Origin: Albimonas marina
Lineage (GTDB): Bacteria > Pseudomonadota > Alphaproteobacteria > Rhodobacterales > Rhodobacteraceae
DNA: 64,000 bases
Direction of reading: 5' to 3'
NCBI RefSeq assembly: GCF_029223255.1
Contig: NZ_JARHUC010000003.1
Span: 682,001 to 746,000, forward strand
Both the position numbers and the translations under genes were made by a program. This document shows, one piece after another, positions 4,814 to 46,095 of this stretch (position 1 is its first letter; each line of letters opens with the position of its first letter). The notes below the pieces were generated by a model, which saw only the letters and a list, made by a program, of their open reading frames with translations, searched no databases and was not told the origin of the DNA.

Positions 4814-4903
4814 TGTAGCCGACGCCCCGCGACACTGTTGCACTCCGGCGACGGCTGCACCTCCCTGTTGGACTTGGCCGGACGTTCGCGTCCGGCTTTT
4901 TTT
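4814..4903 (+). ncRNA. Candidate small RNA, about 90 nt, two hairpins with a CCUCCC linker
   Basis: The 349-base gap between the LysR gene and msrP holds a promoter-like pair, then a 9-bp stem with one mismatch (4818-4826 with 4847-4855, 20-base loop), then a single-stranded linker with CACCTCCC (4858-4865), then a perfect terminator hairpin with a UUCG loop. No reading frame with a ribosome site is present. The anti-Shine-Dalgarno-like CCUCCC recalls the CcsR/cuckoo class of alphaproteobacterial small RNAs, where such motifs bind targets. I cannot assign it to a known family. It could also be a long terminator region. Confidence 0.5.
4877..4903 (+). terminator. Rho-independent terminator, UUCG tetraloop
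   Basis: Perfect 8-bp arms (4877-4884 and 4889-4896) enclose TTCG and are followed by seven Ts. Confidence 0.88.
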
Positions 4904-6098: not shown

Positions 6099-6259
6099 TC
6101 ACGAGGCGTGGAAAGGCCGAGAGGGAATGTTTCAGGGCCAAGGGGCGTAGCGGGGAGGAAGGGGCGGAGGCGCCCTGCGGGCGGGCTTGGGCCTCTGGGG
6201 TCTGGCGCGCCTTCGTTTGCGAAGGGCGGGAGCCTCCGGCGGGCTCCTGACTCACCAAA

Positions 6260-6437
6260 GAACAGGGCCGCGCCTGTCCTTCGGATCCGTCTCTCGCTGA
6301 AGATGCCTGAGCGACTCGTCGGGAGGGGACAAGGACAAGCCCCGCTTGCGCGGGGTCGCTTCGCGATCCCTGACCCCTCCCGCCGAGTCGCTCTTTACGG
6401 CATCAGCGAGAGACGGCTCCGAAGAACAGGCGCTTCG
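6260..6437 (+). repeat. Large palindromic repeat, copy 1
   Basis: Two arms of about 65 bases are inverted copies of each other (GAACAGG...CTCTCGCTGA...GAGCGACTCG...GGGAGGGG on the left) around a central GC hairpin (CCCCGC-ttgc-GCGGGG). The same element recurs inverted at 45917-46095 and directly at 52006-52180. It occupies most of the 500-base gap between serB and msrP, both read leftward. The rest of the gap (6099-6259) is GC-rich and shows no gene. Long open frames through it are chance GC-rich frames that recur because the repeat recurs. It is probably a non-autonomous mobile or structural repeat. Confidence 0.85.
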
Positions 6438-6524
6438 AGCGGGCCGCAGGCCGCGCGCCGGGGCGCCTGGAGAGGCGGGCGGCGCGCGGGAGTGGGCGAC
6501 GCGAGGAGTGGGCGATGCGGGGGG

Positions 6525-15267: not shown

Positions 15268-15604
15268 AAGTGCTGGCTTCTGTTGCCAGGCGCCAGCGAG
15301 CCCCGCCTAGAAGTGCAAACCCCTAGGACTTCAAGATCGGTGGTTTAAGCTGCATTACGCAGCGACGGCCACCGGAGCACGGTTGTCATTGGCAACTGTA
15401 CAATTTGAGCCGGTAACGGTGGCATCCTGCCGAGCGAAAGCAAACACCTTTACACGTCCGTCGATCCTGTTTCGGCCCCTCGCGTCCTGTGATCCCCCCG
15501 TCCAAGACCGGGAAGCAGGAGATTGGTGGAGCCGCCGGGTACCGCCCCCGGGTCCGAGCCGCTTATTCCGTGCGCGTTTATCGCCATAGTCCCCTTGCGG
15601 AGAC
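15268..15604 (-). ncRNA. ssrA: Two-piece, circularly permuted tmRNA
   Basis: Read on the minus strand, the acceptor piece comes first, with a T-arm region and the 3' end CGGCTCCACCA (CCA at 15524). A 44-base intervening segment (15480-15523) follows. The coding piece then begins GGGGCCGAAACAGGATCGAC at 15479. GGGGCCG pairs with CGGCUCC of the acceptor piece with one G-U pair. The resume codon GCC starts at 15393 and the tag reads ANDNRAPVAVAA, ending with TAA at 15355-15357. This is the standard alphaproteobacterial permuted layout for rescuing stalled ribosomes and tagging proteins for ClpXP. The exact outer ends are estimated from the promoter and the 3' hairpin. Confidence 0.96.
15272..15297 (-). 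terminator. Hairpin at the 3' end of ssrA
   Basis: Six-bp arms (GCTGGC 15272-15277, GCCAGC 15292-15297) are followed on the minus strand by ACTTTCCTT. It may end the tmRNA precursor or be part of its 3' coding piece. Confidence 0.45.
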
Positions 15605-15610
15605 AGGACA

Positions 15611-15639
15611 CATATAGCCCCCTCCTCCCCGGATTTGAA
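15611..15639 (-). promoter_or_regulatory. ssrA promoter
   Basis: On the minus strand, TTCAAA (15634-15639) and TATATG (15611-15616) have a 17-base spacer; transcription should start near 15604. Confidence 0.65.
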
Positions 15640-15748
15640 GGGGGCGCCCGGGGTGGCGGCGCGGATTTCCGCGGGACCGGCGGAGCGGGGGCCGCGGCCC
15701 GGCCCGGTCCCGCCCCGCCCGGTCCCGCCCCGATCAGTCCCGCCCCGA

Positions 15749-45916: not shown

Positions 45917-46095
45917 CGAAGCGCCTGTTCTCCGGAGCCGTCTCTCGCTGATGCCGTAAAGAGCGACTCGGCGGGAGGGGTCAGGGATCGCGAAGCGACC
46001 CCGCGCAAGCGGGGCTTGTCCTTGACCCCTCCCGTCGAGTCGCTCAGGCATCTTCAGCGAGAGACGGATCCGGAGGACAGGCGCGGCCCCTGTTC
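45917..46095 (-). repeat. Large palindromic repeat, copy 2
   Basis: This is the same element as at 6260-6437, in opposite orientation. It lies in the 493-base gap between two divergent genes (Tag-like and Mth938-like). Similarity to copy 1 continues another 14 bases at one end (46096-46109, reverse complement of 6246-6259). The central hairpin is CCCCGC-gcaa-GCGGGG. The rest of the gap shows no gene. Confidence 0.85.

Follow-up and report, generated by a model that had tools for sequence, protein, structure and literature searches.

Rolling-circle plasmids carry single-strand origins (sso) of folded DNA, and the CIR repeats of Caulobacter were reportedly described by Chen and Shapiro in 2003. 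In the available part of one published description (PMC2229807), these CcrM-associated intergenic repeats have a unit of ~110 bp made of two stem-loops and a linker, with GANTC, the CcrM site, at or near the terminal loop. Likened by that partial description, CIR repeats are the nearest described chromosomal kind to the element reported here (PMC2229807). The single-strand promoter hairpins known as Frpo or ssi offer, in the portion of PMC11541004 available, a precedent for a second-strand start that is read by the host. The element that we compare with these systems occurs three times in a stretch of 64,000 nucleotides of the Albimonas marina genome, hereafter the window. Our preferred explanation, to which we assign a probability of roughly 40%, is that it is an intergenic DNA hairpin that does not act primarily as RNA, that its Y-shaped tip is most likely a single-strand initiation signal, and that a chromosomal relative of this signal has been amplified.

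A first-pass annotation of the window had described three palindromes, each with two long arms around a small central hairpin and one of them inverted. All three are present as directional units of ~165 bp, with copy 2 inverted relative to copies 1 and 3 (strands +, - and +), and their structure is well above chance, judging by copy 1 (6270-6434), which folded as single-stranded DNA at -74.3 kcal/mol compared to a shuffle mean of -33.8 (z -11.7; 0 of 200 shuffles were as good). The long arms were borne out, and the centre proved to be a small tip with two mini-hairpins. The palindrome is not the whole unit but the core of a longer modular element with conserved left and right flanks. The features in the window are:

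6270..6433, + strand: palindromic core hairpin of copy 1, in a codirectional gap
6330..6375, + strand: tip of copy 1, consisting of the CAAGGA stem, CAA, mini-hairpin 1 (GCC..GGT), mini-hairpin 2 (CGC..GCG), A, and the stem
6170..6259, + strand: left module of copy 1, type A, GGCGCCCTGCGGGCGGGCTTGGGCC ... GGGAGCCTCCGGCGGGCTCCTGACTCACC
6260..6266, + strand: outer GAACAGG of copy 1, a direct repeat of 6424-6430
6424..6430, + strand: inner GAACAGG of copy 1, closing the right arm
6431..6471, + strand: right module of copy 1, CGCTTCG ... GGGGCGCCTGG
6313..6317, unstranded: left-arm GANTC of copy 1, with its partner at 6385-6389
6385..6389, unstranded: right-arm GANTC of copy 1
45921..46084, - strand: palindromic core hairpin of copy 2, in a divergent gap, with GANTC at 45965 and 46037
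52016..52176, + strand: palindromic core hairpin of copy 3, in a convergent gap, with GANTC at 52059 and 52128

The codirectional, divergent and convergent gaps first assigned to copies 1, 2 and 3 agree with our own gene calls. By Pfam, the neighbours are a molybdopterin oxidoreductase and a HAD hydrolase (copy 1), a methyladenine glycosylase and a DUF498 protein (copy 2), and an ABC transporter and PgpA (copy 3). Across the family, the core is a stem of ~60 pairs, tip counted in, that includes conserved unpaired positions: a single T on the left side and, in most cases, five bases (T..C) on the right side. The inner stem has a constant length of 16 nt on the left in 178 of 179 copies, and of 19 nt on the right in all 136 parsed copies (the 43 others were unparsed). 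The tip forms a Y junction, with the stem (G)TCAAGGN/NCCTTGA(C), a CAA linker, the mini-hairpins GCC..GGT and CGC..GCG, and a single A. On the left the flank is drawn from several modules, on the right it is a GC-rich module, and GAACAGG occurs once ahead of the palindrome and once at the close of its right arm. We considered an intrinsic terminator and set it aside: no T run was seen by eye beside the core, and a terminator-like hairpin belongs to one left-module type, not to the whole family. By eye, the left flanks of L115 2951 and L095 2952 have a terminator-like hairpin with a T run immediately 5' of a conserved ACCCACC. Elsewhere in the window, a SorX-like small RNA match at 4833-4903 (+; L103:1525-1595) scored 46.4 bits, compared to a gathering score of 46.6, and was overlapped by weaker SorY and suhB matches. 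An alphaproteobacterial permuted tmRNA lies at 15269-15643 (-), with the tag ANDNRAPVAVAA.

The family is far larger than the three copies that had been proposed. In the 5.85-Mb genome of the window (G000), an arm pattern gave 131 forward and 132 reverse matches; its reversed control gave 3 and 1. Because each copy yields two such matches, the genome holds ~131 copies. The search of the whole genome and of relatives suggested by the first-pass annotation thus recovered further copies, both in G000 and in Albimonas pacifica. A 23-base flank motif, searched against the named genome collection with the window's own records excluded, was found in A. pacifica only (15 stretches), and a DNA-similarity search of 31 genomes returned matches in G000 and A. 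pacifica (G001) only. The third genome of the genus (G002) had no copy by DNA search, no exact solo site, and none in two stretches. For detailed comparison, 95 stretches around listed matches provided 125 copies, 123 of them full and 2 of them halves. No Rfam family reached its gathering score on the element, its order-wide form included; when E values up to 1 were allowed, one match, mir-766 (E 0.15), at chance level and far below its gathering score, overlapped the element in L213. The literature searched, which covered few subscription papers, did not describe the family, for example in the available parts of PMC12306157, PMC2267715, PMC7987155 and PMC10969869. The suggestion of an undescribed repeat family of this lineage therefore holds for a lineage repeat that is absent from the literature searched, but not for its tip, which extends across the order and into phages and plasmids.

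A model built from 40 copies (R1) matched 10 of 198 genomes of the family, G000 counted, and the exact tip pattern occurred in 11 of the 390 genomes searched within the order, again with G000 counted, compared to 0 for the control among the matches listed. These tip loci share a two-hairpin element, in which hairpin 1 (GCTGAGAGGC..) is followed by a linker and by hairpin 2 with the Y tip. A second model (R2), made from 12 chromosomal loci in genera other than Albimonas, matched 53 of 292 genomes and 28 of 113 genera, G000 counted, with as many as 10 matches in a genome, the most that were scored. The Albimonas copies that R2 matches include all three in the window; in most the match is confined to the tip, and in a few it runs the full length. 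Judging from translations of the neighbouring genes, three order-wide copies are flanked by betB and betA, and another one follows betB. GANTC is found in both arms of 22 of the 34 order-wide copies, but not in both arms of the other 12.

Pairing within the core is almost entirely Watson-Crick. Such pairs fill 7,266 of 7,503 cells in the 123 copies from the window's genome, with 10 G-U cells outside one constant pair and 38 A-C cells; for 179 copies (117 own and 62 from A. pacifica) the figure is 10,070 of 10,382, with G-U in 18 cells, one constant pair again left aside, and A-C in 59. One stem pair alternates between U-A (106) and C-G (73), with no intermediate seen. As a yardstick, 5 of the 33 standard helix pairs in the tmRNA of the window are G-U. 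The order-wide alignment (A4) comprises 37 matches, 3 of them incomplete or representing the opposite strand of a copy that is also listed, and its fit to the model biases the figures towards pairing: 97.2% of cells were paired, double changes occurred in 22 of 30 pairs, and there were 179 double-change cells compared to 7 one-sided ones, with 0 of 500 shuffles as high.

Both halves carry GANTC in 113 of the 117 own cores and in 55 of the 62 cores from A. pacifica. The own cores counted exclude L096, L097 and four unparsed full copies, two of which (L150_9962 and L065_4652) have no arm GANTC by eye, and 4 A. pacifica copies were likewise unparsed. The density of GANTC is 11.95 per kb in own cores and 0.84 outside; CTNAG is also enriched (6.08 compared to 0.84 per kb), as expected for any conserved word. 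Among 16 pentamers tested, CGNCG was the most frequent in both halves after GANTC (83 of 117 own cores). Taken together, double substitutions of the Watson-Crick kind with almost no G-U, and GANTC in the arms, point to pairing that is probably conserved at the level of DNA rather than RNA. Covariation of this near-pure kind would allow selection on a DNA hairpin, or arm-to-arm copying, to be separated from ordinary RNA structure. The excess of A-C over G-U in the 179 copies (59 compared to 18, or 36 compared to 18 with one pair dropped; p 0.02) is a hint of RNA from the opposite strand. A call of the RNA strand from the same measure in own copies (G-U 10 and A-C 38, or 10 and 23 without one pair; p 0.035) was rejected, as the cells are not independent.

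None of the 123 full copies overlaps a gene called with our codon-usage script, and the element is thus strictly intergenic. Copies favour the 3' ends of genes over divergent gaps: among the 121 with two called neighbours, 47 are in convergent, 64 in codirectional and 10 in divergent gaps, compared to 22, 99 and 63 for the remaining gaps, 100 bp and longer, of these stretches (Fisher p 2e-11 for convergent against divergent); the 2 remaining copies have a single called neighbour. Order-wide copies with two called neighbours are found in divergent gaps in 0 of 27 cases, and the codirectional ones lean to one orientation, 13 to 5. This location, together with the mosaic flanks, would also fit BIME-like RNA or topological roles. 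A BIME/ERIC-like RNA element, forming a transcript hairpin 3' of genes that serves in 3'-end protection, RNase III cutting or termination, would account for the 3'-end bias, for the orientation of the order-wide copies and for those between betB and betA, and the minus-strand RNA of copy 1 folds strongly (z -14.2). However, such an element would be expected neither to avoid G-U through so many changed pairs nor to conserve GANTC in its arms, and the codirectional Albimonas copies have no strand bias (35 compared to 29; p 0.53). The lack of an Rfam match at gathering score and the occurrence of the tip in phages and plasmids also argue against it, and we regard a role that is mainly in RNA as somewhat unlikely.

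The first-pass annotation had also raised the possibility of a mobile family and of a RAYT/IS200-type transposase in the same genome. Our sample from A. pacifica comprised 36 stretches picked around copies and 15 flank-motif stretches, a design that favours presence in both species. With this in mind, 39 rows of orthologous gaps (38 distinct) had a copy in both species, with identical orientation in all of them, while 2 gaps had a copy in G000 only and 3 rows (2 distinct) in A. pacifica only. Among the 4 distinct unshared gaps, the sites that were aligned had no clear target-site duplication, and one showed a loss between GAACAGG repeats. Because positions and orientation are common to the two species, the copies are probably not young mobile elements, and this synteny argues against recent mobility of the whole family. 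The Y1 family (PF01797), the sole transposase family searched, was matched in 5 of 14 control genomes and gave no match in G000, leaving mobility of the RAYT/IS200 kind without support.

Sites lacking the palindrome but having exact flanks keep a single GAACAGG; by exact matching there are 5 in G000, 3 in A. pacifica and 0 in G002, and 4 of the 5 and all 3, respectively, were inspected. Such sites are expected from loss between the GAACAGG direct repeats, or as a precursor state, and one orthologous pair between G000 and A. pacifica directly shows the difference with and without the palindrome. The palindromes themselves are less stable than their places. In 35 orthologous pairs of cores the mean identity was 0.825, compared to 0.819 for non-orthologous pairs between the species, and likeness within species was 0.852 for own copies and 0.835 for A. 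pacifica. Own paralogs were closer than the ortholog in 23 of 35 cases (p 0.023), with no excess on the A. pacifica side (17 of 35; p 0.61). Left-flank types agreed in 14 of the 35 pairs, compared to a permutation mean of 7.5 (p 0.0006). Orthologous cores are therefore no closer than others while their left flanks still carry a signal of orthology, indicating that the places are old and that the palindrome turns over faster, part of which may be explained by saturation at free stem positions. The flanks of L096 and L097 are inverted relative to the tip, and by eye the stems of L131 and L138 are inverted, which we take as signs of exchange between arms. These inversions, the high copy number, the mosaic flanks and the sites with and without a palindrome could all be produced by a functionless, MITE-like relic whose palindrome is maintained by template switching between the arms. 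Yet position and orientation are conserved in two species, and copying between arms would tend to erase the conserved unpaired bases and the constant 16-nt stem, making a relic of this kind very unlikely. As a separate observation, a Mu-like prophage of 40,292 bp (G000 C12:557996-598287), with Mu transposase domains, a Mu portal, TGTA..TACA ends and a 5-bp duplication, GCGAC, lies inside the tip of one copy (L278, L279 and L280; junctions L085 and L086).

The tip also occurs in phages and plasmids. The exact pattern AAGGNCAAGCCN{2,18}GGTCGCN{2,6}GCGANCCTTGA was found in 8 IMG/VR contigs and its reverse in 0, and 7 of the 8 contigs are 8.3-13.8 kb in size. A looser viral pattern (55 contigs) was dropped, its count being near chance by rough arithmetic. 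Pfam searches of four contigs (L296, L297, L298 and L302) identified Zot and secretin in the first three, and a replication protein in L296 and L302. Secretin and Zot are typical of filamentous phages. R2 scored all 8 viral contigs (E 1.7e-16 to 9.2e-9) and the plasmids pYQ39 (6e-13), pNL15 (5e-12), pSGL1 (1e-10) and Bradyrhizobium p1 (1e-10), as well as rhizobial and Methylorubrum plasmids (E 1.6e-9 to 0.01); since the phage and plasmid loci were picked by their tip, these scores confirm the tip and are not independent. In the rhizobial plasmids, where R2 scores are weaker, a larger structure replaces mini-hairpin 1, and the Novosphingobium plasmid L288 had no R2 match. As a query, a 145-base order-wide copy matched four small Neisseria lactamica plasmids by the tip only, and short tip queries matched 19, 6 and 117 plasmid records. 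A second order-wide copy matched no plasmid, the window copy matched nothing in plasmids or phages, and a 46-base tip query matched nothing in 50,697 phage records or in E. coli genomes.

The surroundings of the tip differ among these replicons. In the 2.3-kb P. putida plasmid pYQ39 it lies outside the listed genes, and the plasmid encodes a protein of the rolling-circle family Rep_1; pYQ39 is the one tip plasmid in which a rolling-circle initiator was shown. The protein tested from Streptomyces pSGL1 is FtsK-like. The tip lies 5' of the MobC and relaxase genes in Methylorubrum pME152. In six plasmids of rhizobia, agrobacteria and Labrenzia, a small ORF of 50-57 codons follows the tip at a distance of ~55-60 nt. 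In the plasmids L285-L287, L289 and L290, predicted folds suggest that a second hairpin 3' of the tip could mask the ribosome-binding region of the small ORF, and this looks like a separate cis-regulator. The tip is thus found outside genes in replicons that have a single-stranded stage, namely the three contigs with Zot and secretin, pYQ39 and conjugative plasmids. Its presence in replicons that pass through single strands suggests that it is most likely a single-strand initiation signal, and because these phages and plasmids share a single-stranded stage but differ in their replication and transfer proteins, a second-strand start read by the host would be the simplest common role. None of the listed phage and plasmid copies has GANTC in both arms by eye, pYQ39 having it on one side only. 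This bears on another explanation, a structural or epigenetic element of the CIR kind, in which a hairpin with CcrM sites would serve as a chromosomal mark or as the binding site of a nucleoid protein, and the tip of phages and plasmids would be borrowed or convergent. The intergenic location, the GANTC in both halves of most cores and the resemblance to CIR repeats as described in the available part of PMC2229807 are in line with it, as is the presence of GcrA (PF07750) in G000, a protein also present in A. pacifica (G001) and in G002, which does not have the family. Nevertheless, the phage and plasmid copies without paired GANTC argue against it, and we consider this explanation decidedly unlikely.

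Returning to the single-strand initiation signal, we can postulate how the element would work. Pairing of the arms is required, with much of their sequence free, and the Y tip is the conserved part. An exposed strand would fold at the tip and could be recognised by a priming factor of the host, either RNA polymerase or the primosome. The chromosomal copies are old, lie mostly at gene 3' ends and usually have one CcrM site per arm, through which methylation may act; exchange from arm to arm and from copy to copy would preserve their pairing and homogenise them in part. As a sub-idea only, we considered a single-stranded promoter with a -35 of TTGAC and a -10 in the bulge: the spacing is constant, but there is no -10 consensus and many own copies are without the right-arm TTGAC. 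We infer that a second-strand start may operate on the chromosome too. A bolder form of this proposal, that the chromosomes of many Albimonas relatives carry dispersed single-strand initiation signals of the filamentous-phage and rolling-circle type, which in Albimonas have been amplified to roughly one every 45 kb and tied to GANTC methylation, is in our estimation unlikely. If it were true, the cell could begin second-strand synthesis at set positions marked by methylation, on single-stranded DNA that is either exposed in the chromosome or incoming. The preferred explanation would join two separate fields, that of intergenic palindromic repeats, whose function has long been debated, and that of the second-strand-start hairpins of single-stranded replicons. 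The specific junction that they share makes the questions about repeats and about replicons testable with small constructs.

Comparison with described systems places the element between several of them. Like ERIC/IRU and YPAL/RU-2, which are 127-168 bp in the available part of PMC2759123, it is an intergenic palindrome of many copies; unlike those, for which the same source gives TA target duplications, none is evident at the aligned unshared sites, and positions are conserved between species. It resembles REP/BIME sequences with RAYT, as far as they are described in the accessible parts of PMC3733652, PMC1525189 and PMC2817692, in being interspersed, in being a mosaic of palindromes and in serving as an insertion target, here for the Mu-like prophage. 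However, REPs are 20-40 bp (PMC3733652), a size that the core of ~165 bp exceeds, as the first-pass annotation had judged, and Y1/RAYT is absent from G000 by the PF01797 search. With CIR repeats it has in common an alphaproteobacterial host, intergenic location and a conserved GANTC, and the order-wide form also consists of two stem-loops and a linker; it differs in that GANTC is within the stem rather than the terminal loop, in the Albimonas core of ~165 bp with its modules and ~131 copies, and in a Y-junction tip common to phages and plasmids. Likened by description rather than by sequence, the element is similar to Frpo/ssi and sso as folded DNA in conjugative or rolling-circle replicons, and unlike them, the Albimonas type is also present in many copies in chromosomes.
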